Shown here piece after piece: positions 183 to 64,000 of a DNA stretch of 64,000 nucleotides (positions are counted from its first letter, which is position 1; every line of letters begins with the position of its first letter). Under the pieces are notes generated by a model that worked only from the letters and a program-made list of their open reading frames with translations, did no database searches and had not been told where the DNA came from. The DNA is from Anaerolineae bacterium (lineage in GTDB: Bacteria; Chloroflexota; Anaerolineae; Promineifilales; Promineifilaceae), in NCBI GenBank assembly GCA_023954475.1, contig JAMLHW010000008.1, positions 124,001 through 188,000 of the forward strand. Direction: 5' to 3'. The translations under genes and the position numbers were made by a program.

Positions 183-1628
183 TTGAGCAACGAAAAATTG
201 AAGATTCTATTTCTTAGCGCCGAAGTCGCGCCTTTTGCCAAAGCAGGTGGGTTGGGAGACGTTGCCGGATCACTGCCTAAAGCTCTCCAGGCTCGTGGGC
301 ATGATGTTCGTGTAGTCATGCCGGCCTATGCCAATATTGAGGCAGGCTATCGCGATGTATCCCCGATGGTAGGTCACCTGACGGTGCCGGTGCGTAACAG
401 CACACTTCCGACCGGCGTGTTTCATGGGACATTGCCCGGCAGCAATGTGCCCGTCTACTTCATCGCAGAGCGCAATTTGTTTAATCGGCCGAATGTTTAT
501 GGTTATGGCGACGATGCTTACCGTTTTGCCTTTTTCAGCCGCGCGGCACTGGAACTGACGCTGGCGCTGGACTGGCGACCGGATATCGTCCATGCCAATG
601 ACTGGCATACTGCACCCGCAGTTGCCTGGTTGGCCACAGGCGCACAGGGTCACGACCGTCTGCGCGACATACCGACCGTTTTCTCGATTCACAATATCGC
701 CCACCAGGGCCTTACAAGCTGGGATATTTTCGACTACCTGAACATTATTACGCATGGGTTGCGTGAAGAGCGGTTCAACGAAGTCAATTTCATGGCGCGC
801 GGCATTTATCATGCCAGTCTGGTCAATACGGTGAGTCCCACCTATGCTCGTGAAATCACGACATCAGAGGGTGGCGCCGGTATGGATGGCCTGTTGCGTC
901 ATCGCGGTAGCGATCTGTTCGGCATTCTCAATGGCATCGACACGGATGTGTGGAATCCGGCAACAGATGATCGCATTCCGCACCACTATTCGGCCGAAAC
1001 TATTGACGACCGTTGGCGCATGCGCCACGCACTGCAAGCGTTAGCTGGTTTGCCCCAGCGCGACGGTATTCCGGTGGTCGGATTGGTGTCGCGGCTCGAT
1101 TGGCAAAAAGGATTGGACATAACCGGTGAAGCGATTCACCGGCTGATGAACAATTGGGCGGGAGAAGCGCAATTCGTCGTATTAGGCACAGGAGCACCGG
1201 AATACGAGCAGATGTTTGCCGGCCTTGCCTACTATCATCGCGAGAAAATGACGGCGATACTTGAATACAATGCCGGTATGGCGCCTTATATCTACGCCGG
1301 CAGCGACATGTTCCTGGTGCCGTCCCGCTTTGAGCCGTGCGGGCTGAGTCAGCTAATTGCCATGCGTTACGGGTCGGTGCCGGTTGTGCGCAGCACCGGT
1401 GGTCTGGCGGATACGGTGTTGGACAGCGTGACAGGCTTTCAATTTCACGATTACAATGCCGATGCATTGTGGCATGCGTTGTCACGCGCCATTTACGTTT
1501 ATAACGTCGACAAACCGCGCTGGCGTGAAATTCAACTTGCCGGTATGCACGCTGATTTTTCATGGCAGCGGTCGGCGGCGGAATACGAACACATGTATCG
1601 GCTGGCAATCGGCCGAAATCAAGCATAA
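183..1628 (+). CDS. glgA: Glycogen synthase (ADP-glucose type)
   Basis: Transfers glucose from ADP-glucose to the growing alpha-1,4-glucan chain in the cytoplasm. The N-terminal GT5 domain carries the nucleotide-sugar motif KAGGLGDV about 25 residues in, and the C-terminal GT-B half carries PSRFEPCGLSQL and STGGLADTV. About 480 residues is the normal length for bacterial GlgA. I choose TTG at 183 because AAAGGA lies 6 nt upstream of it; a GTG at 165 in the same frame has no ribosome site. malQ follows on the same strand after a hairpin, which fits joint storage-glucan metabolism. Confidence 0.95.
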   Translation: MSNEKLKILFLSAEVAPFAKAGGLGDVAGSLPKALQARGHDVRVVMPAYANIEAGYRDVSPMVGHLTVPVRNSTLPTGVFHGTLPGSNVPVYFIAERNLFNRPNVYGYGDDAYRFAFFSRAALELTLALDWRPDIVHANDWHTAPAVAWLATGAQGHDRLRDIPTVFSIHNIAHQGLTSWDIFDYLNIITHGLREERFNEVNFMARGIYHASLVNTVSPTYAREITTSEGGAGMDGLLRHRGSDLFGILNGIDTDVWNPATDDRIPHHYSAETIDDRWRMRHALQALAGLPQRDGIPVVGLVSRLDWQKGLDITGEAIHRLMNNWAGEAQFVVLGTGAPEYEQMFAGLAYYHREKMTAILEYNAGMAPYIYAGSDMFLVPSRFEPCGLSQLIAMRYGSVPVVRSTGGLADTVLDSVTGFQFHDYNADALWHALSRAIYVYNVDKPRWREIQLAGMHADFSWQRSAAEYEHMYRLAIGRNQA

Positions 1629-1644
1629 TCATCATGAACCATAG

Positions 1645-1674
1645 AAACCGGGTTTCTTTCTAGAACCCGGTTTT
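1645..1674 (+). terminator. Hairpin between glgA and malQ, terminator-like
   Basis: Arms ACCGGGTT (1647-1654) and AACCCGGT (1664-1671) extend by A-T pairs and end in a short T run. It could terminate or attenuate transcription after glgA. Its core, GAAACCGGGTTTC, recurs in hairpins near 21,360 and 38,175, so it is probably one copy of a dispersed palindrome family. Confidence 0.6.
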
Positions 1675-1700
1675 GCGGGTCTGGCAGGAGATAGTTCAAA

Positions 1701-3218
1701 ATGCGATTCACGCGTGCGGGTGGCGTTCTCGTTCATCCAACTTCATTTCCAGGCCGTTACGGCATCGGTGATTTAGGCGATGCCGCTTACGGATTTGTCG
1801 ATTTTCTGGAACAATATGGTCAGGGGTTGTGGCAGGTGCTGCCATTAGGTCCGACCGGTTATGGCGACTCACCGTACCAGAGTTTTTCAGCTTTTGCCGG
1901 CAATCCACTGCTGCTCAGCCCGGATCACCTCGTTCGCGATGGTTATTTACCCGCCTCGGCGATTGCTGATGTTCCCGATTTGCCTCATGATCGTGTTGAT
2001 TTTGGCCCGCTGATCACGTACAAAAATGCGCTGCTCGATCAGGCATTGCACCACTATCGCCTGCACGGTTCGGCTGAACAGCAGCAGGCTTATGCCGCAT
2101 TCTGTGTTGAAAATGCCGCATGGGTTGACGATTACGCGCTGTTTATGGCACTGAAGACTGCACATCAGGCGCACGAAGGTGGTGTCTGGAACACGTGGCC
2201 CTCAGAACTGGCTCATCGCGACCCCGTCGCATTGCAGCAGTGGCATGACACCCACGCTGAAGATGTGGAGCGCTATCGCTTTCTACAATTTCTGTTCTTT
2301 GAGCAATGGTCAGCGCTGCGCCGCTATGCCAATGCGAAAGGTATCAGGATTATCGGCGACGCGCCTATTTTTGTCGCGTATGACAGCGCTGATGTGTGGG
2401 CCAATCCGGGCTTGTTTTACCTCGACGACGAGGGCGCGCCGGAGGTGGTGGCGGGCGTACCGCCTGATTATTTCAGCGCGACCGGTCAGCGCTGGGGCAA
2501 TCCACTTTACCGTTGGGATGTCATGCATACGAACCGATATGCGTGGTGGCAGGCGCGGTTACGCGCTATTTTCCAGCAGGTGGACATTGTCCGTCTCGAT
2601 CATTTCCGGGGATTTGCTGCGTATTGGGAGATTCCGGCCGATGAACCGACGGCTGTAGTCGGCCGATGGGTCGATGCACCGGGAATGGATTTCTTCCATA
2701 CTCTCGAAGCTGACATGGGTGAATTGCCGATCATTGCCGAAGATTTGGGCGTCATTACCGAAGATGTCGAACTGCTGCGCGATACATTTGCGTTTCCCGG
2801 CATGAAGGTGCTGCAATTCGGGTTTGGCGGCGAGCGCAACAATGCGTTTTTGCCGCACACGTACACGCAAAATGCCGTCGTTTACACCGGCACGCATGAC
2901 AATGACACGACGTTGGGCTGGTATTTATCGGCCGAACCCGGCGAACAGGACCACATACGCCGTTACGTCGCGTCTTCCGGAAATGACATTGTCTGGGATA
3001 TGATTCGTCTCGCTTACGCTTCTGTTGCGGATATGGCCGTTGTGCCATTGCAAGATTTGATGATCCTGGGAACAGAAGCGCGGATGAATTTCCCCGGTAA
3101 GCTCGGTGGTAACTGGCAGTGGCGTTTCACAGCGGACATGTTGACTGAACAGATTGGGTGGCGCTTACGCGAACTGAGCGAGCTATACGGACGTTTATTG
3201 CTTGTGGAACAACCCTAA
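1701..3218 (+). CDS. malQ: 4-alpha-glucanotransferase (amylomaltase)
   Basis: A GH77 enzyme that moves alpha-1,4-glucan segments between maltodextrins, in the cytoplasm. Family motifs are clear: GDAPIFVAYDSADVW near residue 215, VRLDHFRGF near 295 (catalytic Asp), IIAEDLGVIT near 345 (acid/base Glu) and TGTHDNDTTLGWY near 395. The 505-residue length is standard. The ATG is preceded by GGCAGGAGAT at a normal distance. It stands 72 nt after glgA, so the pair probably forms a glycogen/maltodextrin unit. Confidence 0.95.
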   Translation: MRFTRAGGVLVHPTSFPGRYGIGDLGDAAYGFVDFLEQYGQGLWQVLPLGPTGYGDSPYQSFSAFAGNPLLLSPDHLVRDGYLPASAIADVPDLPHDRVDFGPLITYKNALLDQALHHYRLHGSAEQQQAYAAFCVENAAWVDDYALFMALKTAHQAHEGGVWNTWPSELAHRDPVALQQWHDTHAEDVERYRFLQFLFFEQWSALRRYANAKGIRIIGDAPIFVAYDSADVWANPGLFYLDDEGAPEVVAGVPPDYFSATGQRWGNPLYRWDVMHTNRYAWWQARLRAIFQQVDIVRLDHFRGFAAYWEIPADEPTAVVGRWVDAPGMDFFHTLEADMGELPIIAEDLGVITEDVELLRDTFAFPGMKVLQFGFGGERNNAFLPHTYTQNAVVYTGTHDNDTTLGWYLSAEPGEQDHIRRYVASSGNDIVWDMIRLAYASVADMAVVPLQDLMILGTEARMNFPGKLGGNWQWRFTADMLTEQIGWRLRELSELYGRLLLVEQP

Positions 3219-3340
3219 GCAGGATTGAAGGTTTCAGCGCAACGGAACAGAAACGTTATAGATGTGAAGAAAAGCAGCAGCCATGCGTCTGTTTCGCCCT
3301 TTGCCTATTGCTTGCATATCGCAGATAGGTACGTCAAAGC

Positions 3341-3748: not shown

Positions 3749-3822
3749 TACCCACTCCTCTGAAATTGGGGCACGAACAGCTTGTCGGCGCCCTGCGGTT
3801 TGGAAGGCCGCGTTGCTCTCTA

Positions 3823-5496: not shown

Positions 5497-5510
5497 TGTT
5501 TTACATGTCG

Positions 5511-25709: not shown

Positions 25710-28700
25710 TTATGATTCGACAAGTGCTGCTTCCAACCGGCTTGCCAGTGATGTGACATGTGGCTCTTCCAGGATATTGCGATGACTTCCAGCAACCATA
25801 CACACGTTTACGCCGCCGAGTGCCAGATTAGCCCAGCCCATCAGTGGGTCGCCTGCCCGCAGTAGAGAAAGACGCTTGACGCGGTAAAGTGTCACGACAC
25901 CGGGATATGGCTGTGGTTTATAGCGGATTTGCGCCTGAATCTGTGTTTCAAACATGCGGCGTGCATGGGTGGGAATTGTTTGCATTTGATCCCCAAGGAT
26001 GTCCGTGGAGGTGACTGGTTTTTTTCGGCCGAAACGTCGCAACACCCTGTTGCCTGTCATCCGCGCCCGACGTCGCACAGCAGACCACGATTCTGTGCCG
26101 CCCTGCTCAATATAATCGCCTATCCAGTAAGGTAGATTACGTGCGAAATTGAGCCATTCACGTGGGCGTCGCCAAATCGCCCGACCTCCTGGCCCCAGCG
26201 GAGCATAGCCTTCAAATATAGCCAGATGGGCAACGGCTTCACCCTGTGCAACTAACCGACAGGCCATTTCATACGCTACCAGTCCGCCAAAACAATAACC
26301 GCCGAGACGATACGGACCTTCCGGCTGAACGGCACGCAGCAACGCCAGATAACGCTCCGCCATCGCTTCTACCGAGGTGTCGGGCTGCTCCGCCCCATCG
26401 ATGCCGACTGCCTGTAGTCCGTAAAACGGCTGATCCGGCCCTATGTTTCGTGCCAGCGCAGCGTAGCCGAGCACGCCGCCACCGATGCCGTGCACGCAAA
26501 AGAATGGTGGCCGCTCTCCTTGCGGCTTGATGGGCACGAGGATCGACCAATCGGCCGAATCTTCTTGTGACCGCAGCACATTGGCCAACTGACCCACCGT
26601 CGGTGCGCGAAACAGGGCTGCCAGTGGCGCACGCACACCGATACGCTCCTCGATTGCCGCAAACAGGCGAATCGCCAGCAGCGAATGACCACCCAAATCA
26701 AAGAAATTGTCATCGCGGCCGACCGGGTGAACTGCCAGTATATCCTCCCAGATGTGGGCGAGTTGCGTTTCCAGACCATCTTCAGGGGGCAGATAGACAG
26801 CGACGGCGACATCGGCGCGACCCGGTTGTGGCAGTTGGCGCATATCGATTTTGCCGGTTGGCGTCAGCGGCAAAGCGTCAATCAGCACAATGGCCGCTGG
26901 AACCATGAACTCGGGTAACTGCGCCAACAAATAGTCGCGTAGCGTTGTCGTTGTCGGCTGTGTACCGGCGGCCGACACAATGTAAGCAATCAATCGCGCC
27001 TGACCGTTTGTATCGGTATCTGCGCGGACCACGGCACTTTGGACAGCGTCGTGCTGCATCAACACGACCTCGATTTCGCCCGGCTCTACGCGATAGCCGC
27101 GAATTTTGACCTGGTGGTCGGCACGACCGAGGAAGTGGAGGTTGCCGTCGGCGCCATAGCGGGCGAGATCGCCGGTCTTGTAAAGAAGCATGGAGGATGA
27201 AGGATGACGGATGAAGTGATCGGCGGTGAGCTTCGGCCGATTCCAGTAGCCACGCGCCGGCAAATCGCCGCCAATATAGAGTTCACCTGTTACGCCGACG
27301 GGAACAGGCTGCATGTGCGCGTCGAGCAAGTGGATGGCAGCATTGGCGATGGGTCGGCCGATAGGAGGCAGCGTCGGCCAATGATCGAGCGAGTGGCTCA
27401 GCGTGTGGGCCGTGGCGACATGCGTTTCGGTGGGGCCGTATTGATTGGTCAGTGTGCAGTTGGGCAATCGGGAGAAAAATCGGCCGATTGCCGGTGTGAT
27501 GCGCAACTGTTCACCCGCTGTAATCACTTCGCGCAGCGCGTCAGGTGTTATGTGCGTCTGTCGATCCGCCGCTTCAGCCAGTGCGTTCAGTGCTACAAAC
27601 GGCAAAAACAGGCGTGCAATTTGCTGCCCGGCAACGAGGCTGAGAAGAATTGACGGTTCGCGTCGCACGACATCGGCAATCAGCACCAGTGTACCGCCAA
27701 AACAAAGGGTGCTGAAAATCTCCTGAAAGGCGACATCAAAACTCAATGAAGTCAATTGCAGCGTACGCGCACCAACCGTTAATTGCGATTGTGTCTGTTG
27801 CCAGGTTACGAGGTTTACCAATGGCCGATGTGGCATGGCAACCCCTTTCGGCCGACCGGTACTGCCTGACGTGTACAAAATGTAAGCCAATGAGTCTGGT
27901 GTCGCATAATGCGTCGGCGCAAGCGATTTTCGTGGCAGGTAAATGGTGTCGAGATTGACTATCAAATCGGCCGAATCGGGCAAACGCGCTACAGTCACAT
28001 TTTGCGCAAGAATTAATAGGGGACGGCATTCTTCGATCAACAGCGACAGCCGCGCCGTCGGAAACGTCGGGTCGAGCGGCACGACTGCGCCACCCGCTTT
28101 CAAGATAGCGAGTACGGCCACGATTTGTTGCGGCGAGCGCACTAACGCCACGCCTACGGGAATATCCGGGCCCACACCTCTGTTTTGCAAGAAATGGGCC
28201 AACCGGTTAGCCTGCTCGTCCAGTTCACGATAACTGACTTCGCGTTCATCGATCAACAGGGCACAGACTTCAGGCGTTCGCGAGACTTGATCCGCAAAGA
28301 GGTCCTGCAGACAACGGTTTGGATAAATTGCATTCGTAGCGTTCCAGGCAGCAAGTTCAGCACGTTCTGCATGCGTGAGCAGCGGCAGCGCCATGACCGG
28401 CTGCTGCGGATTGGCCAAAGCACCGGTCAGGACTGTCTCCAAATGGCTGAGCAGCCGTGTCATGGTCGATGTGTCGAACAGATCGGCATTGTATTCGAGG
28501 AGGAGCCGCAAGCCGTCGTCGCGCGGAATGGCAAACAGCGTGAGGTCAAATTTGCTGTAGGTACGCGTTAGAGGGAAGCGCGTAACGGTCAAATCGCCAA
28601 ATTCCGGCAAGGTATCGGCTTGCTGCAAGACGAAAAGCACCTGAAACAGTGGATTGCGTCCCAGATCGCGTTGCGGTTGCAGTGCTTCGACGATTTGCTC

Positions 28701-29798
28701 GAATGGAAACGCCTGGTGCTCAAAACCGTCCAGCACTGTCATATGAACCTGCTTGATCAGTTCCTCGAAGCTGGTATTTTCGTGTAGTCCGCAGCGCAAA
28801 ACCAGAGTATTGAGAAACAAACCGACCACATTGGCGACTTCAGGCTGCTCGCGGTTGGCAATAGGGCTGCCGATCAGGACGTCGTTTTCGGCCGAATAAC
28901 GGCCCAACAGTACTGCAAACGCACTGAGCAGCGTGGTAAATAATGTGACGCGATGCTCACGGCTAAACGCCTGCAGTCGGTCGAGCAGATCACGTGATAG
29001 GTGATGATCCGCCGCAGCTCCGCGCGTAGTCAATTCGGCCGGGCGCGGTCGATCGGTGGGCAAGGCCAATTGGGCTGGTGCATGTGCCAATTGCTCGATC
29101 CAATATGTTCGGTCAACAGTGAAGGCATCGCTGCCGACTTGATCGCGCTGCCATTGCGCGTAGTCACTATATTCAATTGGGGAGCCTTGCAGTTTTGCCG
29201 TCGTGCCATTGCGCTGTGCAGCATACAATGCCGCCAAATCGCGCAACAAAATGCCCATCGACCACTCATCACCGCAAATGTGGTGTAACGCTAGCAACAG
29301 CACGTTGTCGTCATGGCGCAAGCGGATCAGGTTACAGCGAAAAAGGGGACCGGTTGCGAGATCGAAAGGCTCGTTGGCAGCCGTTTGAATGAGTTCGCGT
29401 GTTGCGAGTTCACTTTCGGCCGAATCGATCGCACGCAAATCATGTACAGTCAGCGGCACACTTTCCCATTCAGTCAGACACTGCACGGGCACGCCTTCCA
29501 CTAAGGGAAACGTCGTGCGCAGTGCTGCATGACGGGCAACCAATTGCGCTAGCGTTGCTTGCAGAGCGTTCACATCGAGCGGCCCGCGCAATCGCAAAGC
29601 GGGTGTCATGTGATAGGCTGCGTTGGCTTCACCCAGTTGATTGAGAAACCAGAGACGTTCCTGAGCAAACGATAACGGTGCGGGACCCGCATCCGAACGA
29701 TGCGCAATGGTTGGCACGTTGCCTGCTAAATCAGTTTCCGCCAGCAGTTGATCGAGGAGCGCCCGCTGGGCGTCAGAAAATTCAAACGACGCCGTCAC
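25710..29798 (-). CDS. Nonribosomal peptide synthetase, C-A-T-TE (termination module)
   Basis: 1362 residues. Condensation domain about 38-440, with HHICGDEWS in place of HHXXXDG (His173 catalytic). Adenylation domain about 480-975 with YTSGSTGRPKGV; by eye alignment to GrsA its pocket reads D-V-Q-F-I-A-Q-V-A(-K), nearest to proline codes. Carrier domain near 1000-1065 (DLGGHSL). Thioesterase about 1090-1355 whose elbow is GYCFGG: Cys1169 (codon 26292-26294) replaces Ser. It should condense the last residue and release the product by hydrolysis or cyclisation. The GTG start overlaps the previous stop (GTGA). The assigned substrate is tentative. Confidence 0.92.
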   Translation of the reverse strand: MTASFEFSDAQRALLDQLLAETDLAGNVPTIAHRSDAGPAPLSFAQERLWFLNQLGEANAAYHMTPALRLRGPLDVNALQATLAQLVARHAALRTTFPLVEGVPVQCLTEWESVPLTVHDLRAIDSAESELATRELIQTAANEPFDLATGPLFRCNLIRLRHDDNVLLLALHHICGDEWSMGILLRDLAALYAAQRNGTTAKLQGSPIEYSDYAQWQRDQVGSDAFTVDRTYWIEQLAHAPAQLALPTDRPRPAELTTRGAAADHHLSRDLLDRLQAFSREHRVTLFTTLLSAFAVLLGRYSAENDVLIGSPIANREQPEVANVVGLFLNTLVLRCGLHENTSFEELIKQVHMTVLDGFEHQAFPFEQIVEALQPQRDLGRNPLFQVLFVLQQADTLPEFGDLTVTRFPLTRTYSKFDLTLFAIPRDDGLRLLLEYNADLFDTSTMTRLLSHLETVLTGALANPQQPVMALPLLTHAERAELAAWNATNAIYPNRCLQDLFADQVSRTPEVCALLIDEREVSYRELDEQANRLAHFLQNRGVGPDIPVGVALVRSPQQIVAVLAILKAGGAVVPLDPTFPTARLSLLIEECRPLLILAQNVTVARLPDSADLIVNLDTIYLPRKSLAPTHYATPDSLAYILYTSGSTGRPKGVAMPHRPLVNLVTWQQTQSQLTVGARTLQLTSLSFDVAFQEIFSTLCFGGTLVLIADVVRREPSILLSLVAGQQIARLFLPFVALNALAEAADRQTHITPDALREVITAGEQLRITPAIGRFFSRLPNCTLTNQYGPTETHVATAHTLSHSLDHWPTLPPIGRPIANAAIHLLDAHMQPVPVGVTGELYIGGDLPARGYWNRPKLTADHFIRHPSSSMLLYKTGDLARYGADGNLHFLGRADHQVKIRGYRVEPGEIEVVLMQHDAVQSAVVRADTDTNGQARLIAYIVSAAGTQPTTTTLRDYLLAQLPEFMVPAAIVLIDALPLTPTGKIDMRQLPQPGRADVAVAVYLPPEDGLETQLAHIWEDILAVHPVGRDDNFFDLGGHSLLAIRLFAAIEERIGVRAPLAALFRAPTVGQLANVLRSQEDSADWSILVPIKPQGERPPFFCVHGIGGGVLGYAALARNIGPDQPFYGLQAVGIDGAEQPDTSVEAMAERYLALLRAVQPEGPYRLGGYCFGGLVAYEMACRLVAQGEAVAHLAIFEGYAPLGPGGRAIWRRPREWLNFARNLPYWIGDYIEQGGTESWSAVRRRARMTGNRVLRRFGRKKPVTSTDILGDQMQTIPTHARRMFETQIQAQIRYKPQPYPGVVTLYRVKRLSLLRAGDPLMGWANLALGGVNVCMVAGSHRNILEEPHVTSLASRLEAALVES

Positions 29799-32700
29799 GC
29801 TTTGTCTCCAGCTGTTTGCAATTGGGCTTGCGCCTCTGCATCAGACAGCCGCGCCACGTGGAGGACGATTGCTGCGGTTTTTTCCAGTCGCACCTGATCG
29901 GCTGCGGTAGGCGCCAGGGCAGTCAGCAAACCGGCCGGTGTCGGCGTGTTGAACAAGGCACGCAGGGTCAGCGGTATGCGCAACGTGGCAGTGATGCGTG
30001 AGACGAGCTGCACAGCTAGCAGGGAATGGCCGCCCAAATCGAAGAAATTGTCGTGCAAACCGACGACCGGCAGATTGAGCAGTTCAGCCCAGAGGCTGGT
30101 CATGACAATTTCGGCCGAACTGGTTGCTTTCGACTCGATTGGTATTGCAGAATCGGCCGAATCAGTCGCGATCAACGCTTTGCGGTCGATTTTGCCCGAA
30201 GTCGTCAGTGGCAGCGCTTGCAGCAACGCGATGGTAGCCGGTTGCATGGCGCTCGGCAGCAGCGTGGCGAGATGAGTGCGAATGGCTTCAGAAGCAAGCG
30301 CCGCATTGCTCGGCACGACGTAGGCTGCCAATTGCAGGCCACCGTCATCCATTTCACGCGAAACAACGACGGCCTCGGCGACATCGGGATGTTGGCGTAG
30401 TGCTGCTTCGACTTCGCCTAATTCAACGCGCACACCGCGAATTTTGACTTGATCATCGGTTCGGCCGATAAACTCGAGATTGCCGTCGGGCAGCCAGCGG
30501 ACGCGGTCACCGGTGCGATAGGAACGGGTTGTAGGTGAAGGATGAGAGATGAAACGGGTTTGTGTGAGCTCGGGTTGATTGAGATAACCGAGTGCTACGC
30601 CCGCGCCGCCGATACAAAGTTCGCCGGGAATGCCGATGGGAGCGGGATTGCCGTAGTGATCGAGGACATAGGCGCGGACATTATTGAGCGGTCGGCCGAT
30701 TGGCATTGTATGTAACGACTTCGTGTCGCTCGGTTCAAATGCGGTGGCGACGACGGTAGTTTCGGTCGGCCCGTAGGTGTTGACCCAGCGCACATCGGTA
30801 CCGGTGCGTTCACGCCATTGCCGGTATGTGTCCAGCCGTGCCGCTTCACCGCCGACGATGACAAGGCGCACACAAGCCGGAAACATGTGCCGGTCGCGTT
30901 GCATTTCCGCTACCCAACTGTGCCAGAATGCCGTCGGTAAGTCGAGTACGGTGATGGCATTGCGTTCTATCTGCCGGGCGAAGTCGGCAAAGGTGTCGGG
31001 TAGATCAATCGGGCGCAGCACCAGTGTACCACCGGCAGCCAGCGTCGGGAAAATTTCCTCGACGGCGGTATCAAACGCCGGCGACGCAAATTGCAACACG
31101 CGATCTGTCGGGCCGATGTCGTATCGTTCAATCGCGTCCGCTACAAAATTGACCACAGCGCGATGGGATATGGTGACACCTTTCGGCCGACCGGTGGAGC
31201 CGGAAGTGTAGATGACGTAGGCAGCAGACGGCGGAAGACGAAAATCGGAGGGCGGAAGGCTGCAAACTGATAGTTGACTGTCAACACCTGATTGCTGCAA
31301 GCTGATCTGCGCGCCGGAATCACTGATTTGGAAGTCGCGCCTGGCAGTTGGCATTTCCGGATCGAGTGGCAGATAGGCAGCACCAGACTTGAGCACGCCG
31401 AGGATGGCAATAATCCATTCGGCCGAACGGGGCAGCTCCAGCGCCACAACAGCTCCGGCACCAACGCCTCGGCTCTGCAACAGCGCTGCCAGTTGATTGG
31501 CACGTTGATCGAGTTCGGCGTAACTCAGCGACCGATCGCCGGCGATGAGCGCCGTCGCGTGCGGTGTGCGGACAGCCTGTGCCTCAACCATCTGGTGAAC
31601 GCCGTCAATATCGGGTAGCGGCATCGTGGATCCTGACCACTGCATCAACTGTGCTTTTTCGGCAGTGGTCAGGAGTGGCAGCGAACCAATCGGCCGATTC
31701 GCGTTTTCCAAAATGCCGTCGATCAATATTTGCAGGTGATCAAGCAGCCGCGAAATGGTTTGTGGTCGGTACAAATCAGTGTCGTATTCAATCGTCAGCG
31801 CCAACCGTTCCGATTCGTCATGAATGACAAGAGATAAATCGTGAGATGCTGCCTGATCGCGCATCGATTGCTGTTCGACTTCCAGCCCGGCCAATTGCAG
31901 CGGCTGCATTGGCGTGTTGAGGTAGTCGAACATCACCTGGAACAGCGGCGTATGGCCGGGAATGCGGTCCGGTTGTAACTCTTCTACCAGTTTCTCGAAG
32001 GGCAGCGTCTGGTTGGCAAACGCGTCCAGAGCTGTCCGGCGCACCTGCCTCAACAAATCGATGAAAGTCGGATTGCCGGATAAATCGGTGCGCATGACCA
32101 GCGTATTGATAAAAATGCCGACAAGCGGAGTGGTGTCAACCGGGGTGCGTCCGGCAATCGGGACGCCGATGAGCAGGTCGGTAGCGCCCGTATAGCGATG
32201 CAGCAGCACGTTAAACAATGCCAGTATGGTCATAAACGGCGTGGCTTCGTGTGCATGGCTGAATGACCGGATGGCGCGGGATGTTTCGGCCGAAAGTGTT
32301 GCACGCTGTGTGGCCCCGGTCATCGTCGGTATGCTCGGTCGCGGAAAATCAGTTGGCAGTTCGAGAAGCTGCGGTGCACCGTCCAATTGGCGCAGCCAAT
32401 ACGACAGTTGTTTGTTTTCGGCCGAACTGTCTGTCTGTTGACGCTGCCAGACGGCGAAATCGACGTACTGAATCGGCAAATCGGGCAGATCGGGTGCCGT
32501 TCCGCTGCTAAACGCGGCGTAATAGTGGGCCAATTCGCGGTTGACAATGCCGACTGACCAGCGATCGGACGCAATGTGATGTGAAATGCGCAACAAAACA
32601 TGATCGTCTACTGCCAGCCAGAAAAGCACGTGGCGCCACATGGGAATGGCCGCGAGATCAAACGGGCGTTGTAATTGTTCTCGGATCAATTCCTGCAGAC

Positions 32701-33109
32701 GGGATTCCTGTTCGGCCGAATTCAGATCGCTCAGATCGACGACCGGCAAAGGGATCGCGGTAGGCGGTTGTACGGTTTGCAGCGGTTCGGTGTCACCCAT
32801 CGCGTACGTCGTGCGCAACGCGCTGTGGCGGTTGACAAGCGCGTCGATAGCCCGGCGCAGCGCAGCGACATCGAGTGAACCTCGCAACCGGTTGACGCTG
32901 TAGCGGTGATAAGCGGCATTGTCCGGTTCGAGTTGCTGCAGAAACCATTGACGGCGCTGACTGAACGAGAGCAGCGCGGGACCGTCGTCCGGGCGACGCG
33001 GGATGGTTGCAGCAGACGTTGCAGCGCGGGTCTTTTGCCGCAGCCGTTGTTCCAGCAGCGCCCGTTGTGCAGGTGTTAATTTGGCAAGTCGTTGGTCAGT
33101 GGCACTCAT
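29795..33109 (-). CDS. Nonribosomal peptide synthetase, C-A-T (elongation module)
   Basis: 1104 residues. The condensation domain has SHHIASDRWS (about residue 178). The adenylation domain includes IYTSGSTGRPKGV and TYGPTETTVVAT; its pocket by eye alignment to GrsA is D-T-E-D-I-G-T-V-V(-K). The extra acids E and D in the pocket suggest a basic side chain, but I cannot name the residue. The carrier domain has DLGGHSLLAVQ near residue 1045. The ATG at 33109 shares a base with the stop of the loading-module gene (TGATG), and its own stop overlaps the next gene, so the three synthetases are translated in series. Confidence 0.92.
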   Translation of the reverse strand: MSATDQRLAKLTPAQRALLEQRLRQKTRAATSAATIPRRPDDGPALLSFSQRRQWFLQQLEPDNAAYHRYSVNRLRGSLDVAALRRAIDALVNRHSALRTTYAMGDTEPLQTVQPPTAIPLPVVDLSDLNSAEQESRLQELIREQLQRPFDLAAIPMWRHVLFWLAVDDHVLLRISHHIASDRWSVGIVNRELAHYYAAFSSGTAPDLPDLPIQYVDFAVWQRQQTDSSAENKQLSYWLRQLDGAPQLLELPTDFPRPSIPTMTGATQRATLSAETSRAIRSFSHAHEATPFMTILALFNVLLHRYTGATDLLIGVPIAGRTPVDTTPLVGIFINTLVMRTDLSGNPTFIDLLRQVRRTALDAFANQTLPFEKLVEELQPDRIPGHTPLFQVMFDYLNTPMQPLQLAGLEVEQQSMRDQAASHDLSLVIHDESERLALTIEYDTDLYRPQTISRLLDHLQILIDGILENANRPIGSLPLLTTAEKAQLMQWSGSTMPLPDIDGVHQMVEAQAVRTPHATALIAGDRSLSYAELDQRANQLAALLQSRGVGAGAVVALELPRSAEWIIAILGVLKSGAAYLPLDPEMPTARRDFQISDSGAQISLQQSGVDSQLSVCSLPPSDFRLPPSAAYVIYTSGSTGRPKGVTISHRAVVNFVADAIERYDIGPTDRVLQFASPAFDTAVEEIFPTLAAGGTLVLRPIDLPDTFADFARQIERNAITVLDLPTAFWHSWVAEMQRDRHMFPACVRLVIVGGEAARLDTYRQWRERTGTDVRWVNTYGPTETTVVATAFEPSDTKSLHTMPIGRPLNNVRAYVLDHYGNPAPIGIPGELCIGGAGVALGYLNQPELTQTRFISHPSPTTRSYRTGDRVRWLPDGNLEFIGRTDDQVKIRGVRVELGEVEAALRQHPDVAEAVVVSREMDDGGLQLAAYVVPSNAALASEAIRTHLATLLPSAMQPATIALLQALPLTTSGKIDRKALIATDSADSAIPIESKATSSAEIVMTSLWAELLNLPVVGLHDNFFDLGGHSLLAVQLVSRITATLRIPLTLRALFNTPTPAGLLTALAPTAADQVRLEKTAAIVLHVARLSDAEAQAQLQTAGDKA

Positions 33110-35001
33110 CACTCGTCTGCGGCAAGTAATTGGGCGATGTCGTCATCGCTCAACCCTGCGATATCGTTCAGGAGATCGTCGAGTTCATCGGCCGAAAGCT
33201 GGTCAAGTTGTGCCTGTACGACGAAATCCGCCAATTGACCCAATTGGGGCGCTTCAAACAAGGCTGTTTCGCTCACATTCAGACCGAGATCGACGCGCAG
33301 ACGTGAAATGACTTGTCCGGCACGCAGTGAATCGCCGCCAAGAGCGAAGAAATCGTCGTTGAGGCCAACCTGTTCCAGATTGAGGATGTCGGCCCAAATC
33401 GCTGCGATTTGCTGCTGCAGCGGTGTTTCCGGTGCAACGAACGGAGCGGACGCTTCCCACTGCGGCTGCGGCAATGCTTTGTGGTTGACTTTGCCGAACG
33501 GCAGCAGCGGCAGTGCGTCGAGCGTCATAAAGGCGGATGGAATCATGTACGGCGGTAATTTGCTGATGAGATGGGCACGGAGTTCGGCCGAATCGATCAC
33601 TTTTCCCGATTGTGGCACATTGTATGCGGCAAGTGCCAACTCGCCCGGTTCCCGTTCGAGCGCCACAACGGCCGTTTCGCGAACGCTTTCCAGTTCGAGT
33701 AGCGCAACTTCAACTTCGGCCGTTTCCACGCGATTACCGCGAATCTTGACTTGTCCATCCGCCCGTCCCAGATGCATCAACTCCCCGTTGGGCAGCCACT
33801 GGCCGAGGTCGCCGGTCAGATAAATGCGCTCATCGCTGCCGGGTACAATGCGGTAGGAAGCGGCTGTCGCTTCCGGATCGCGCCAGTAACCGGGTGAGAG
33901 ATAGCGGCTACGAACGGCGATTTCACCGCTCGTGCCTTCCGGAACCGGATTGCCGTCAGCATCGACCAGGTCAATGTGCATATCGGGCGTGATAATGCCT
34001 AGCGACACCAACGGTGCATCGACAACGGAGTCGTGATCGAGGATCTTGTAAGTTGCCAGGTACGTTTCCGTAGAACCGAGTCCGGATCGTAGCACCGCGC
34101 CGCGTGGAAAATGGCGTTTGAAATTGTCGATGTCGTGCCGGTAGACCGGTTCGCCACCCAACTTGAGAATGCGCATATCGGGAAACATGTCGTTCGGGCC
34201 AAGTGTAAATATCAGGTGGCGAAAAACGGTGGGGACGGAATGGTAAGTCGTAATGCGTTCACGGCGCAGCCAGTCCGCCAGCCCATCAATGCCTTGCCGC
34301 TTGACGCTGTAGGGCAGCAGTTTACCGCCGAGCAGTAGTGCCCCAAAGGTGTTGATGACCGATGCGCCGAAGGAGGGTGACAGTAATTGGGCAAAGCGGT
34401 CGTCGGACCGGTGGCGCAAGACCGGCGCCGTGATGAACAGGGCATGCAAGGTGTTGCGCTGCGCCTGAATGACGCCTTTCGGCCGACCGGTGGAGCCGGA
34501 TGTAAACATGACATTGACGTAGGCATCGGGCGGTACGGGTAGGCAAAGATTTTCGGCCGAAGTCGGCAGTGTGACCCTATCGACATCGATCCAACTGCCG
34601 TCGCCGACCAACTGCGCTGCCATCGCAGCATGTTGTCGGTCTGTCAGGGTCACCTGTGGATCCGCTGCGTTAAAGATGGCTGCCGAACGGGCTGCGGGAT
34701 GCTTGGGATCGAGCGGTACATAATATTTGCCCGCTTTTAGCACGGCCATCATCGCCACATAGAATCCGGGACCAGCGCCAAAGAGCAGGGCAACCGGGGC
34801 CGGATCTGGTCCGAAACGGTTTACGAGTAGCCGGGCTATCTGGTTGGCTTTCGCATTGAATTCAGCGTAACTGATTGCGTGATCGTCGACTTTGACGGCG
34901 ATGCGATCGGGAAAATGTGCAACAACTTGCTCAAATCGCGGTGCGATGCCGGCTTCGAGATCGGGTACTGCTTCGAGGTCTATACGGGTCTCTGGTATCA
35001 T
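33109..35001 (-). CDS. Nonribosomal peptide synthetase, A-T loading module with unusual pocket
   Basis: 630 residues: adenylation domain about 20-500 (FTSGSTGRPKGV, LTGDLGQWLPNGE, GRADGQVKIRGNR), carrier domain with GGDSL (Ser558), then an acidic tail rich in L-S-D-D that may be a docking peptide. There is no condensation domain, so it starts the chain. The residue aligning with GrsA Asp235, which holds the amino group of amino acids, is Gly (SPSFGASVINTF). This points to a substrate without a free alpha-amino group, such as a keto, hydroxy, N-blocked or other carboxylic acid. The ATG follows AGGGAA. Confidence 0.9.
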   Translation of the reverse strand: MIPETRIDLEAVPDLEAGIAPRFEQVVAHFPDRIAVKVDDHAISYAEFNAKANQIARLLVNRFGPDPAPVALLFGAGPGFYVAMMAVLKAGKYYVPLDPKHPAARSAAIFNAADPQVTLTDRQHAAMAAQLVGDGSWIDVDRVTLPTSAENLCLPVPPDAYVNVMFTSGSTGRPKGVIQAQRNTLHALFITAPVLRHRSDDRFAQLLSPSFGASVINTFGALLLGGKLLPYSVKRQGIDGLADWLRRERITTYHSVPTVFRHLIFTLGPNDMFPDMRILKLGGEPVYRHDIDNFKRHFPRGAVLRSGLGSTETYLATYKILDHDSVVDAPLVSLGIITPDMHIDLVDADGNPVPEGTSGEIAVRSRYLSPGYWRDPEATAASYRIVPGSDERIYLTGDLGQWLPNGELMHLGRADGQVKIRGNRVETAEVEVALLELESVRETAVVALEREPGELALAAYNVPQSGKVIDSAELRAHLISKLPPYMIPSAFMTLDALPLLPFGKVNHKALPQPQWEASAPFVAPETPLQQQIAAIWADILNLEQVGLNDDFFALGGDSLRAGQVISRLRVDLGLNVSETALFEAPQLGQLADFVVQAQLDQLSADELDDLLNDIAGLSDDDIAQLLAADE

Positions 35002-60303: not shown

Positions 60304-61310
60304 ATGATTTTACTGGAGGCGGGATGTTGAGTTCGGCCGAAATGGCTGCAGCACGCCATCATACGTACACATTGTTGAGTCGGCTGTATCATGAAGGCGT
60401 TTCGGCCGAAACAATACCGTATGTTGAAGCTATCCCGACACTCGCTCGCCATTTGAGTCAGTTTGACGATTTTGCCGCAACTCACCATGGAATCTTTCGA
60501 TTCGACATTTTTCCCTACGAGAGCATGTTTCGTGGCACGACGGGACTTGTCGGCGGACTAATCACCGAGGCAGTTGGCGCTGCCTGGCACAGCAGCAGGA
60601 TAATGCCACCGTCAGAACCTGATCACATTGGCAATGAAATGGCTTTATTGGCATTTCTGGCCGGCTCAGAGGCGGACGCCACTGTTGCAGAGAAGCCCAT
60701 CGTAGCGCGTCAGATGCAGGCAAAGCAGCACGAATTGCTAATGAACCACGTGCTGCCGTGGTTGCCGTCTTTCCTTACGGCGCTGCGTGTCAATGGACAT
60801 CCGTTTTACGTCGCCCTGGCTGATCTGACATGGGAAGTTGTTGCAGAGCATATGGCGGCCCGGCCGCCGCTAACTGATTTGAATGATGTTTTGCCGTCTA
60901 CACCCAATATTTTGGATGATGAACGATCCAGTATCAAAGACATCGTGCGTTTTTTGGCGATACCGGCTTACAGCGGTTTGTGGTTCGGCCGAAATACGAT
61001 CATCAAGCTGGGACGCGACTGCAATTTGCCGCGCGGTTTTGGTGGACGCATTGACATGGCGATGGCTTTGTTTCGCTCTGCCGTGGCCTACGATGAAGTA
61101 GAAACATTGCTGTCGGCAATTGGCGCGTTGGCAGCACAATGGTCAACGCACTACAGAGCTATGCAAACAGGCGCAACCCATTTGGAGTCTTTCATCGCTT
61201 TGTGGGATCGGCGCGTTCAGGATACGGGTAACATGCTTGCGCGTATGGTGCAGATTGTCACTTCTGAACCGTTGAATGGGAATTCGCAATTAATCCGTGA
61301 AATCGATTGA
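60300..61310 (+). CDS. TorD-like molybdoenzyme chaperone
   Basis: 336 residues, all helical. The TorD/DmsD-type stretch FDIFPYESMFRGTTGLVGG is near residue 76, followed by DHIGNEMALLAFLAGSEA. TorD proteins hold molybdoenzymes for cofactor loading, usually those of the DMSO reductase family. Here the gene overlaps the stop of a xanthine-dehydrogenase-family subunit (ATGA). It is longer than usual for TorD (about 200 residues), with an extra C-terminal part. Confidence 0.75.
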   Translation: MNDFTGGGMLSSAEMAAARHHTYTLLSRLYHEGVSAETIPYVEAIPTLARHLSQFDDFAATHHGIFRFDIFPYESMFRGTTGLVGGLITEAVGAAWHSSRIMPPSEPDHIGNEMALLAFLAGSEADATVAEKPIVARQMQAKQHELLMNHVLPWLPSFLTALRVNGHPFYVALADLTWEVVAEHMAARPPLTDLNDVLPSTPNILDDERSSIKDIVRFLAIPAYSGLWFGRNTIIKLGRDCNLPRGFGGRIDMAMALFRSAVAYDEVETLLSAIGALAAQWSTHYRAMQTGATHLESFIALWDRRVQDTGNMLARMVQIVTSEPLNGNSQLIREID

Positions 61311-61334
61311 TCGATCATTTCCGAGAGGTATAAT
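61307..61334 (+). promoter_or_regulatory. Promoter for the Rieske oxygenase transcript
   Basis: TTGATC (61307-61312), a 16-bp spacer and a perfect TATAAT (61329-61334). The -35 overlaps the last codons of the TorD-like gene. The predicted start near 61341 leaves a leader of about 220 nt. Confidence 0.65.
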
Positions 61335-61340
61335 GGAGAT

Positions 61341-61447
61341 GGGTAACCGGCAGTGTCGGTGATCATGTGTCACCGACTACTGCTCTTGGCAGGAGGACCG
61401 GTCCCGCTTGGGCGGAGAATCGAGATGCCATCGCTTTCGATTCTCCG
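61341..61447 (+). ncRNA. Structured RNA leader, possible riboswitch or attenuator
   Basis: Predicted from the likely transcription start. ACCGG (61346-61350) can pair with CCGGT (61398-61402), enclosing a hairpin GTCGGTGA/TCACCGAC (61355-61362 with 61370-61377) and a smaller CTC/GAG hairpin, which makes a three-way junction. CCGC-TTGG-GCGG follows (61404-61415). An 11-bp hairpin CGGAGAATCGA/TCGATTCTCCG (61413-61423 with 61437-61447) then resembles a terminator with a weak tail. The Rieske gene begins 112 nt later. I could not match it to a known riboswitch class. Confidence 0.45.
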
Positions 61448-61559
61448 TTCTGTGTTATATGCAGCTATTTGACATTCGGCCGATAAGATAGCGGCACCCA
61501 TTGTATTCCCGTTTTACTCTTATGCTTTCCACCATCGTCGTAGTTGAAGGGAGTGAATC

Positions 61560-62786
61560 ATGATCAAAAATTTCTGGTACGCCATTGAATTTAGCGAAAA
61601 GGTTACCCGCGAACCGATGCGACTGACCATTCTCGGGCAGGAATTGGTACTTTATCGCGATACACAAAACAATCCGGTTGTCATGAGCGATCTGTGTGTC
61701 CATCGCGGCGGCGCACTGTCTGATGGTTTTACCGAAGGTGACTGCATCCGCTGTCCGTATCACGGTTGGAAATACGAACCAAATGGCGCTTGCATTGAGA
61801 TTCCCGCCAATCCGCCCGGTCGCAGCATTCCTAAAAAAGCGCGCGTCGATGCCTATCCTTCAGTTGACAGATACGGCTGGATCTGGGCATTTCTTGGCGA
61901 TTTGCCCGAAGCAGAGCGACCACCGATGCCCGAATTGCCCCACTTCGACAATCCCGATTTGCGTCGTACAACCGGCATCTATGAGTGGGACGTCCACTAC
62001 GCACGCGCATTGGAAAACGGTATCGACTTTTCGCATGGCGCGTGGGTTCATGGCGGTTCATTCGGTAACCGCGACGAACCGGAAATCGAAGATTACAATG
62101 TCGAATACATCAACGATCTGTCTGCGCGCGCGACGATTGATTTTATGCCCAACCGCGCCAAAGGTTTGTGGAGCCGTCTTTACAAGAGCGATAAGGAACG
62201 AGCGCCTATCAAGGTCACCAATACATGGTGGATGCCAAATGTCACCTTGCTTGAAGTGCAGTTGCCGTTCGGATTTCAACGGCTGTTCAACGCCCATGTG
62301 CCGGTCAACGAAAACAAAACTATCACTAAATGGCAGTTGTTGCGTGACTTTTTCAAAGGCAAATGGGCAGACCGCGACGCAGAGCGACGCGTGATCAAGA
62401 TTTTCAACGAGGATCGGCCGATGGTGATGGCGCAGCGCCCCGAATTGTTGCCGTATGATTTGGCGGCAGAATTGCATGTCAGGTCAGATGCTATTCAAGT
62501 GGCGTTCCGCAAAACGCGCAACAAATATCTCGACATGGGATGGGGTATCGACATGCACCGCATTCGCGCCGAATACGCTAACTACCAGGCTGTGGTCATT
62601 CCGTCTCCGGCGCGACGCGAAGTGCCGGAACTGGCTAATGCGTGGATCATGAAGGAAGTTCCGGTAAAAGGTCAGGATGAGCCGGACGATAGCAAATTGC
62701 GCCGCCCGGGCGACCCACGCCGGTCGGCAAAGCGTTCAACTAGCACCAATGGCGCTGATTCCGACGTGTATGAGGACTTTAATTAG
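61560..62786 (+). CDS. Rieske non-heme iron oxygenase (pheophorbide-oxygenase-like)
   Basis: 408 residues. The Rieske cluster is bound by CVHRGG (Cys46, His48) and CPYHGW (Cys65, His68). Mononuclear iron ligands are in ENGIDFSHGAWVH near 150-165. It hydroxylates or cleaves a ring with O2, taking electrons from a reductase not seen here. The next gene encodes a protein like red chlorophyll catabolite reductase, which recalls the plant pheophorbide a oxygenase pair. The C-terminal 35 residues are low-complexity. AGGGAG precedes the ATG. Confidence 0.9.
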   Translation: MIKNFWYAIEFSEKVTREPMRLTILGQELVLYRDTQNNPVVMSDLCVHRGGALSDGFTEGDCIRCPYHGWKYEPNGACIEIPANPPGRSIPKKARVDAYPSVDRYGWIWAFLGDLPEAERPPMPELPHFDNPDLRRTTGIYEWDVHYARALENGIDFSHGAWVHGGSFGNRDEPEIEDYNVEYINDLSARATIDFMPNRAKGLWSRLYKSDKERAPIKVTNTWWMPNVTLLEVQLPFGFQRLFNAHVPVNENKTITKWQLLRDFFKGKWADRDAERRVIKIFNEDRPMVMAQRPELLPYDLAAELHVRSDAIQVAFRKTRNKYLDMGWGIDMHRIRAEYANYQAVVIPSPARREVPELANAWIMKEVPVKGQDEPDDSKLRRPGDPRRSAKRSTSTNGADSDVYEDFN

Positions 62787-62788
62787 TC

Positions 62789-63517
62789 ATGTCGCTTGCA
62801 CATCGGCTTGCGCAGAACACACTGGACGCCATTATCGGCCGATTTGACCTGACTGAGCACGGCAACCCCTACAAAGTGCTGTCCAGCCCAATGTCGCCGG
62901 AGTCGGTCGGTACGGTACGCCTCTTTTCCGGAGGGCCGATTCACAAACTGGTCTACATTGGTCTTGCGGTGCCAATGATCGGCCTCGATTCGCACATGGT
63001 GTTTGCCTTTACGGCGCCGGATAGTGCTGTCCCGCATTTCACGCTCGACTCCGTGCTGGCGGGACCTCACTTTGCGTTCCATCTCGACTTGATTCCACGC
63101 GTTGACCTGGGTGCGAATCTGGCGTATATCGACGAAGTGATGCATCCGCTGACGCCGTTGGTCGAAACAGCACGCGATATTGAAGGTCTGGAGCGCGCTC
63201 ATCTGACGCCGCGCCAACTGGCGGTTATGTCGCCGTGGATGTTGGCATATCGCGCCAGTGAAGATGCATTTGCGCAGATTGACGGACATGTTGCGCAGTA
63301 CATGGCGCACTGGTTTGACATTGTCAGGCGTGGTGTTTCGGCCGAAACCATCGCCTCACTCAACCACACCGATTTCGCTGCACGTGATCAGCGCAATCGC
63401 AACGCCATCTTCGATCCGGAAGTCGACAAAGTGTGGGCACAGGTCGCCCGTCTCGTCGGTGACGACACCAGCGAAGAACTGCGCGAATTGCTGCGCACGC
63501 AAGCATTGCCTGCCTGA
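62789..63517 (+). CDS. Red chlorophyll catabolite reductase-like / bilin reductase-superfamily protein
   Basis: 242 residues. Residues 83-116 (HFTLDSVLAGPHFAFHLDLI then PRVDLGANLAYIDE) follow the same order as the plant reductase core, where a D-L-P-H-R-K-D-L-X-X-N-X-X-Y stretch is found. The C-terminal RDQRNRNAIFDPEVDKVW also fits. Plant enzymes of this family reduce open-chain tetrapyrroles with ferredoxin. The gene starts 2 nt after the Rieske stop. The match was made from memory, so function remains a proposal. Confidence 0.6.
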   Translation: MSLAHRLAQNTLDAIIGRFDLTEHGNPYKVLSSPMSPESVGTVRLFSGGPIHKLVYIGLAVPMIGLDSHMVFAFTAPDSAVPHFTLDSVLAGPHFAFHLDLIPRVDLGANLAYIDEVMHPLTPLVETARDIEGLERAHLTPRQLAVMSPWMLAYRASEDAFAQIDGHVAQYMAHWFDIVRRGVSAETIASLNHTDFAARDQRNRNAIFDPEVDKVWAQVARLVGDDTSEELRELLRTQALPA

Positions 63518-63534
63518 CTCAGGAGTAGCGACAC

Positions 63535-64000
63535 ATGGTATCGCTTGTTTACATTGGTTTTGGCATCCTGAAACTGGTCTTACTCATCATGGCCGTGCGC
63601 GAACTGATCGTATACAAGCGTCTGTATTTATTGTTTTTGGTGCTGACGCTGTTTGGTCTGGCGTATGATAACTTCAGCGTGGGATTCGGCCGATTTATCG
63701 GTGAAGGTGACCTGCTGCAATCACTGAACACACCGCGCTACGTGATCCACGCCCTGATCACACCGCTGTTAATCCTGGTAGGCTTGCATCTGGCACGCAA
63801 TGCCGGCGTCTCATGGGCATTCGGCCGAAAGACTACGGCGTTTTTCATCGTCGTCACGATTTTGCTGATTTCCCTCGGTGCATTTCTAGATATAGCCCGT
63901 CTGGACCTGGAAGTCGCGTTTGACGGCGATGCAATTCGCTACGCCAACGGCGCATCAGTCGGGCCGCCAGTACCCGCGATTGTGACCGTAATCATGCTCA
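63535..64000 (+). CDS. Multi-pass membrane protein (cut by the window end)
   Basis: An open frame of 155 codons runs from the ATG at 63535 off the end of the window. At least four hydrophobic helices are visible (VYIGFGILKLVLLIMAV, LYLLFLVLTLFGLAY, VIHALITPLLILVGLHLA, TAFFIVVTILLISLGAFL). CAGGAG lies 9 nt before the ATG. It follows the reductase-like gene by 17 nt and is probably in the same transcript. Family unknown. Confidence 0.75.
   Translation, partial: MVSLVYIGFGILKLVLLIMAVRELIVYKRLYLLFLVLTLFGLAYDNFSVGFGRFIGEGDLLQSLNTPRYVIHALITPLLILVGLHLARNAGVSWAFGRKTTAFFIVVTILLISLGAFLDIARLDLEVAFDGDAIRYANGASVGPPVPAIVTVIML

Follow-up and report, generated by a model that had tools for sequence, protein, structure and literature searches.

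A highly iterated palindrome built on CGGCCG, and its flank dialects in one bacterial family

Results

A palindrome dispersed through the 64-kb window

The stretch analysed here (the window) comprises 64,000 nucleotides of contig JAMLHW010000008.1 and belongs to a genome that we refer to as G000. A preliminary description, made from the window alone, had reported a highly iterated palindrome that saturates it. We recovered exactly 117 copies of this word, TCGGCCGA, between positions 485 and 63828 (Table 1), and 100 dinucleotide shuffles yielded a mean of 1.70 copies and a maximum of 6. The word is an 8-bp palindrome, identical on either strand, and no 8-mer in the window is more extreme. The earlier expectation of a single copy was about right for shuffled sequence; a Markov model with the sites masked gives ~3 per 64 kb. 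The form WTCGGCCGAW predominated as described, with A or T on both sides of 103 of the 117 copies, and forms with one end base changed were indeed much rarer: counted on both strands, the perfect word occurred 234 times, and its one-base neighbours GCGGCCGA, ACGGCCGA and TCGGCCGT 6, 4 and 4 times, respectively. All three reading frames were used (63, 24 and 19 copies), and 11 copies were intergenic, as judged with a home-made gene caller.

Apart from the palindrome, the window contains a small non-ribosomal peptide synthetase cluster at 25710-35001 on the minus strand, with three adjoining frames that carry condensation, AMP-binding, carrier and, in one of them, thioesterase domains.

The palindrome across the genome G000

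The assembly of G000 (5,120,153 bases in 26 contigs) held 7668 copies of TCGGCCGA, one per 668 bases, against 125 copies of a reversed-word control. Finer measurements were made on an 864-kb sample (L010-L029 and L059-L078, the window included; GC 0.545), in which the gene caller predicted 635 genes and 86% coding sequence. The preliminary description had noted that counts near the Markov expectation, or an equal excess of all 8-mers containing CGGCCG, would mean ordinary codon or GC bias. The sample contained 1348 copies, where an order-2 Markov model built with masked sites predicted 43 (order 4 predicted 28), a ~31-fold excess. Nor was this excess shared by other 8-mers with the same core: CGGCCG with any other flank pair had an observed-to-expected ratio (O/E) of 0.16 to 1.08, so that both flanks are needed and one-flank forms are not in excess. 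For one-base variants of TCGGCCGA the order-2 O/E was 0.63-1.08 at position 1, 0.84, 0.84 and 0.17 at position 2, and 0.27-0.50 at positions 3-4; depletion at these inner positions is expected if permissive contexts have already been converted.

The density of the word was 1.57/kb in coding and 1.44/kb in intergenic DNA, with 734, 248 and 186 copies in the three frames. These similar densities and the use of all frames show that the force acts on DNA and not on codons. When Markov models were fitted to each part separately, the O/E was 77 for intergenic and 28 for coding DNA, and the intergenic value exceeded the coding value in eight of nine sampled genomes, the exception being G167. A set of 176 intergenic copies in G000 had A or T at 97% of adjoining bases and at ~79% of the next, with little preference beyond, and the density of the word rose with gene GC up to 0.60. 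Spacing of one per 668 bases, occurrence in all frames and between genes, and one-base variants that are not in excess uphold the likeness, drawn in the preliminary description, to HIP1, the prime example of the highly iterated palindromes (HIPs). The host is also a probable non-cyanobacterium, as had been supposed: apart from records of the genome itself, the closest named purA genes came from three Chloroflexota assemblies, with 56 to 58% identity, and none from Cyanobacteria. A HIP-like excess of CGGCCG was not seen in five Chloroflexota stretches retrieved in the purA search.

Many other palindromic hexamers were strongly avoided in the G000 sample, including CCTAGG (O/E 0.11), CCGCGG (0.13), GGGCCC (0.14) and CAGCTG (0.16), a pattern that would fit pressure from restriction enzymes; within its dialect flanks, CGGCCG shows the reverse. 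The two longest word-free gaps in the 480 kb read of contig C1 lie at 295484-301795 and 73772-78686, have a GC of 0.448 and 0.655, and are possibly foreign DNA. A scan of viral contigs with a 14-base context of the G000 word, a weak test that used a single pattern, returned 77 stretches, none with at least four copies of TCGGCCGA.

One core with several flank dialects

We counted TCGGCCGA, ACGGCCGT and CGGCCG in the whole genomes of 396 members of the class, of which 31 belong to the family of the window. Within this family CGGCCG exceeded the reversed control GCCGGC in 29 of the 31 genomes, at least 2-fold in 25, and fell below it in G299 and G328. The ratio was 1.3 to 1.8 in all four sister-family genomes. 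Outside the window's family, 11 of 365 genomes, counted by eye, surpassed 2-fold, and none had more than one copy per kb. In samples of G346, G133 and G272 the O/E of CGGCCG was 13.0, 17.6 and 12.4; its excess is not due to base composition, since no other of the 64 palindromic hexamers was above 1.9 in these genomes.

The bases that flank the core distinguish dialects (Table 1). The sorting into dialects is our own; relatives were sampled at 20 to 259 kb each, with a few kb for some, and the calls of GCGGCCGC and of any-flank genomes rest on these samples. Symmetric flanks predominated in the octamer dialects, as in G352 (AA pairs in 420 of 648) and G167 (GG pairs in 401 of 456). Extensions beyond the octamer differed, the next base being A in G151 and G114 and C in G167. 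Density followed word length, at 3.1 to 5.3/kb in hexamer dialects (5.1/kb in G133) and about 1.5 to 2.2/kb in octamer dialects. A density target of about one copy per kb was rejected as a general rule, since it fits G000 only, and not G352 or G133. Taken together, these results show that TCGGCCGA represents one dialect among several of a family-wide word. The core of this word, CGGCCG, has been constant, and the specificity for its flanks has shifted from one lineage to another.

Several further features of the relatives were recorded. In a 100-kb sample of G067, from genus g2 (GC 0.64), CGGCCG was ~2-fold in excess and one-base variants had an O/E of 1.26, values for which the Markov model may fit poorly; in this genus the word is possibly decaying after loss of its driver. 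GCCGGC is nearly absent from the whole genomes of G133 (132 in 4.1 Mb) and G167 (51 in 8.0 Mb), and further palindromic hexamers were missing from the G133 sample, among them CGATCG (none, with 46 expected). In 64 kb of G133 (L086-L092) the 10-mer GTGTCCCTAC and its overlaps were ~300-fold over-represented (9 against 0.03), and a short repeat around GTGATGGGTG dominated the 10-mers in the sample of G194 (L097-L098).

Saturation of permissive contexts and effect on proteins

In the G000 sample, 734 of 833 Ser-Ala-[Asp/Glu] contexts were spelled exactly TCGGCCGA, where codon usage predicts 58. The corresponding figures were 245 of 428 for [FLIV]-Gly-Arg (7 predicted) and 188 of 285 for Arg-Pro with suitable neighbours (7 predicted), so that filling exceeded expectation 13 to 37 times across the three frames. 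The share of Ser-Ala-[Asp/Glu] contexts spelled as the word depended on the preceding base, being 0.97 after T (541 contexts), 0.93 after A, 0.39 after G and 0.19 after C. Filling in the A dialect reached 191 of 193, 124 of 134 and 59 of 69 in the three frames of G352, and 0.97, 0.84 and 0.74 in G358.

In frame 0, TCGGCCGA encodes Ser-Ala-[Asp/Glu], ACGGCCGT Thr-Ala-Val and GCGGCCGC Ala-Ala-Ala. SAE was the top tripeptide outlier of the sampled G000 proteome (579 against 78 expected from amino-acid frequencies). TAV took this place in the pooled A-dialect genomes G352, G358 and G340 (438 against 64, with ACGGCCGT as the spelling of 422), and AAA in G167 (257 against 60; 216 of the 257 spelled GCGGCCGC); tripeptides with masked letters (X) were ignored in ranking G167 and the pooled g8 genomes. 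TAV was at expectation in G000 (121 against 126), as were SAE and SAD in A-dialect genomes. The dialect is therefore a predictor of tripeptide content, each octamer dialect making its own tripeptide the top outlier. In any-flank genomes, too, contexts were filled well above codon usage, and no tripeptide stood out to a similar degree.

We then compared residues with those of orthologues, defined as reciprocal best hits in other genomes; one copy may enter more than one comparison. At frame-0 copies in G000 the agreement was 0.377, against 0.540 at flanking codons and 0.618 at other positions, and all three residues agreed in 7 of 77 comparisons. The A-dialect genomes gave 0.367, 0.479 and 0.619, with all three residues agreeing in 3 of 59. 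These data show that TCGGCCGA has replaced amino acids in proteins. In the G000 sample 3707 of 247,847 codons, ~1.5%, lie inside a copy.

Turnover and spacing of copies

On a tree of the single gene purA, the word-less G328 was nested among A-dialect genomes with moderate support (92/89, 86/85), and this placement suggests that G328 lost the word; the position of G299 was not settled. Across dialects, 4 of 100 mapped G000 copies coincided with an A- or G-dialect copy (1/27, 1/19, 1/8, 0/6 and 1/40). Coincidence with CGGCCG in any-flank orthologues was 10/17 in G133, 2/6 in G346 and 1/9 in G194. A positional function for the copies was rejected, since positions are not retained between dialects. 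Within the A dialect, aligned copies around purA were shared in 4/5, 9/9, 4/5, 3/5 and 1/6 cases in five species pairs, and random 8-mers were identical at frequencies of 0.50, 0.67, 0.10, 0.12 and 0.05 in the same pairs. The numbers are small; pooled by our own sum, 21 of 30 copies were shared where ~10 would be expected from random 8-mers.

Copies in G000 were spaced more evenly than at random: at 8-30 bp from a copy the hazard of a further one was 0.5 per kb, and by 800-1600 bp it had climbed to 2.3 per kb. Compared with nine control words, the coefficient of variation of the spacing (0.92) was not extreme (control minimum 0.89), and the deficits of short and of long gaps lay beyond all nine. 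With 35 control words and strands pooled, G000 lay beyond all of them on three measures. No repulsion between sites was detected in G352.

Candidate drivers

The preliminary description had suggested a solitary methyltransferase acting on GGCC or CGGCCG as a possible keeper of the word. We surveyed three methyltransferase families (PF00145, PF01555 and PF02086) in 35 genomes of the order, taking the best locus per genome in the comparison for PF01555. G000 had one PF00145 gene, two PF02086 matches and, among the matches listed, six to PF01555. No tested family tracked the word across the family of the window (for PF01555, among the matches listed). Of the 35 genomes 19 had a PF00145 gene, and 8 of the 18 with the A dialect had none. 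G358, which is 97% complete and has 14867 copies of ACGGCCGT, had no PF00145 match, and PF01555 appeared only at 4.6e-4 among the matches listed. The word-rich G194 had a match to none of the three families, PF01555 again being judged among the matches listed. The 4.2-kb locus of the sole PF00145 gene of G000 (Table 1) had a GC of 0.416 against 0.545 in the sample and contained 2 copies of the word where ~6 would be average; because of this low GC and the few copies, the gene looks recently acquired. The G-dialect and any-flank words are without adenine, which rules out an adenine methyltransferase as a cause shared by all dialects. With one recent-looking C5 gene in G000, and neither G358 nor G194 having a convincing cytosine enzyme, the suggested link did not find support. 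The methyltransferase idea is alive but unsupported; incomplete metagenome-assembled genomes can miss islands.

The phosphorothioation gene dndC was over the cut-off in 3 of the 35 genomes and a Vsr gene was present in 7; neither was found in G000, and Dnd and Vsr were rejected as drivers on account of this patchy presence. A ComEC-family gene occurred in 33 of the 35 genomes. It is uninformative, because G299 and G328, where the word is absent, are among them.

Table 1. Copies of the palindrome in the window, flank dialects of the family, and the PF00145 locus of G000
Feature	Word	Position or genomes	Strand	Details
Copies in the window (first bases), part 1	TCGGCCGA	485, 990, 1609, 2659, 2928, 4282, 4421, 4655, 5333, 6311, 7575, 7941, 8830, 9916, 10073, 11391, 12119, 12268, 12426, 13126, 13941, 14341, 15454, 15751, 16328, 17118, 18031, 18584, 18661, 19091, 19719	both	
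Copies in the window (first bases), part 2	TCGGCCGA	20637, 21041, 22011, 22338, 22589, 22647, 23240, 23813, 24376, 26025, 26551, 27233, 27354, 27480, 27848, 27967, 28888, 29416, 30111, 30153, 30461, 30692, 31183, 31419, 31690, 32286, 32418, 32712, 33188, 33584, 34479, 34553, 35625, 36246, 37827, 39151, 39193	both	
Copies in the window (first bases), part 3	TCGGCCGA	40080, 40396, 40789, 40871, 42114, 42991, 43820, 45016, 45307, 45417, 45921, 46453, 46528, 46650, 47496, 48054, 48165, 48252, 48453, 48694, 48987, 49067, 50162, 50176, 51205, 51374, 52013, 52172, 54224, 54433, 55109, 55321, 56108, 56142, 56755, 56818, 57151, 57835, 58141, 58791	both	
Copies in the window (first bases), part 4	TCGGCCGA	60333, 60402, 60985, 61476, 62414, 62835, 63338, 63686, 63821	both	
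First copy in the window	TCGGCCGA	485..492	both	in open frame 165-1628, which matches a starch-synthase-type glycosyltransferase
A dialect	ACGGCCGT	18 genomes		43 to 85% of all CGGCCG; 2,984 to 14,867 copies each
T dialect	TCGGCCGA	G000 only		79% of CGGCCG; at most ~10% elsewhere in the family
G dialect	GCGGCCGC	G167		401/456 CGGCCG in sample
Any-flank	CGGCCG	G133, G346, G272, G194		no strong flank preference
Weak excess	CGGCCG	5 genomes of genus g2		
Word absent		G299, G328		
Sole PF00145 methyltransferase of G000		L009:1462-2748		428 amino acids, TIGR00675 match; 152-amino-acid frame upstream at 362-820

Discussion

How could one word come to fill nearly every place that can hold it, within genes as well as between them? 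The reading that we favour, at a probability of about 0.4, is that TCGGCCGA is a HIP-class word maintained at thousands of sites by a conversion or repair drive that acts on DNA site by site. A dimeric enzyme or repair complex, specific to DNA and belonging to the family, would read the palindrome through both half-sites. Whenever two alleles or strands come together of which one has the exact word and the other does not, at a replication mismatch or in a recombination heteroduplex, the word would win. Near-miss contexts would be converted and exact copies protected until nearly every permissive place is filled, and a change in flank specificity would cause the whole genome to be re-spelled in a new dialect. 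Such a site-by-site drive would explain the saturation, a density set by word length, and the turnover between dialects. More tentatively still, the family may carry a specificity factor other than a classical DNA methyltransferase that enforces this genome-wide spelling, each flank switch in a lineage having rewritten about ten thousand sites together with the tripeptides of the proteome. If true, the whole genome would be subject to a drive that is specific to a sequence and reinforces itself.

Several observations weigh against this drive. Copies in G000 repel each other, both short and long gaps being fewer than in random scatter, and Ser-Ala-[Asp/Glu] was spelled as the word in 0.71 of 68 contexts less than 50 bp from another copy, compared with 0.95 of 182 at 400-800 bp; a strictly site-autonomous drive predicts no repulsion. 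Raw intergenic density was below coding density in the relatives, and in G167 it was lower even after correction for composition. One-base variants were in excess in G340 (1.48), G151 (2.3) and G114 (2.11). G167 gave no signal of amino-acid replacement (agreement of 0.586 at copies, 0.585 at flanks and 0.632 elsewhere; all three residues in 14 of 54), no driver gene was found with single-family queries, and most of the same pattern is predicted by additive selection for binding sites.

This last explanation, which we consider only somewhat less probable than the drive and which accounts for almost as much, holds that an abundant dimeric protein of chromosome organisation or recombination binds the word, each copy giving a small gain in fitness and the flank preference being specific to the lineage. 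Strict palindromy, the need for both flanks and the A/T preference that reaches two bases past the octamer between genes resemble a dimeric site, conservation within a dialect is above that of random 8-mers, and the repulsion below ~400 bp in G000 is explained better by selection than by a drive. For HIP1, too, statistical analyses are stated in PMC6604393 to have favoured maintenance by selection. Selection would have to be effective at each of thousands of sites, and strong enough to replace amino acids; no diminishing return is visible in G352 or G133, and copies seldom hold their places from one dialect to another (4 of 100). Ordinary bias in codons, amino acids or base composition, or an assembly artefact, has a negligible chance of being the cause. 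It is true that the most used frame places Ala (GCC) among common neighbours and that, as described above, genes of higher GC carry the word more densely. Bias of this kind was rejected on the intergenic copies and their O/E and on the filling of contexts, 13- to 37-fold above codon usage in every frame; CGGCCG is moreover the sole outlier among 64 palindromic hexamers in three relatives, and the tripeptide outliers follow the dialect.

Two further mechanisms are known from other systems. In Elhai's model for HIP1 a methyl mark on the word steers mismatch repair and ratchets the number of copies up. We regard this as improbable here: the ~1500 copies per Mb in G000 fall within the 1000-2000 given in that work, and G000 has matches to all three methyltransferase families, but among the matches listed none of these follows the distribution of the word, many A-dialect genomes have no PF00145 gene, no convincing cytosine methyltransferase appears in the word-rich G358 and G194, and G133, at 5.1/kb, exceeds the saturation near one site per kb stated there. 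Improbable as well, in our judgement, is a DNA uptake sequence, by which DNA bearing the word would be taken up and recombined, so that the word spreads and dialects mark barriers to transformation. Lineage dialects round a fixed core are described for Neisseriaceae by Frye et al. (2013, PMC3630211), and ComEC is nearly universal in the order. ComEC does not discriminate, being present in the word-less genomes too; the word is strictly palindromic; and one-base variants had an O/E of 0.63 in G000, 0.94 in G352 and 1.09 in G358, unlike the graded excess of mismatched forms, but of 1.5 to 2.3 in G340, G151 and G114. For uptake sequences, Bakkali (2007) reports over-representation of one-mismatch forms as well, with a gradual fall-off.

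The strength of the force, whatever its nature, can be gauged from the proteome, whose top tripeptide outlier is set by a DNA word and of whose codons ~1.5% lie in a copy; protein evolution in such genomes is unreadable unless the word is taken into account. Comparative tests become possible where a single family offers several dialects of the core and, apparently, at least one loss of the word. The role of HIP1 is still open, and the literature searched describes HIP sequences in Cyanobacteria. A later study on selection and periodicity of HIP1 reportedly exists. We found no publication joining Chloroflexi and CGGCCG, in a search with subscription journals largely outside its scope, and the HIP literature, as represented by titles and opening lines, concerned mostly Cyanobacteria and named no Chloroflexota.

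Chi sites are short, GC-rich, over-represented and dispersed, and are not palindromic. TCGGCCGA shares the first four properties but is palindromic and in 30- to 80-fold excess. Dnd phosphorothioation occurs at GGCC in Streptomyces lividans, and this GGCC core is common to both systems; the dnd marker gene dndC passes the cut-off in 3 of 35 genomes here, and G000 is not among them. Unlike the targets of restriction-modification systems, which are avoided, TCGGCCGA is in 31-fold excess. It resembles the uptake dialects of Neisseriaceae, as set out by Frye et al. (2013), in its shared core, lineage-specific flanks and effect on encoded peptides, and differs in being a strict palindrome that needs both flanks and in lacking an excess of one-base variants in G000, G352 and G358.

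The closest likeness is to HIPs. These are over-represented, mostly palindromic oligomers, with HIP1 (GCGATCGC) as the prime example; they reach ~1000-2000 copies per Mb, are sometimes symmetrically extended, in his Table 3 with the palindrome preserved, and are always accompanied by a methyltransferase that can act on them, according to Elhai (2015, PMC4390886). TCGGCCGA is likewise a GC-rich palindrome and the dominant over-represented octamer, with a hexamer core and a symmetric palindromic extension; its ~1500 copies per Mb (7668 in 5.12 Mb) are in the HIP range, and its inner one-base variants are rarer than its outer ones, all as in the HIP account. It differs from HIP1 in having the core CGGCCG instead of CGATCG and in residing in a probable member of the Chloroflexota and not in a cyanobacterium. 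Unlike HIPs, it retains one core throughout a family in which the flanks form several dialects, no tested methyltransferase family has so far been seen to track it, and in this case the effect on amino-acid sequence has been measured. The palindrome is a second, independent HIP-like case, in a probable member of the Chloroflexota.

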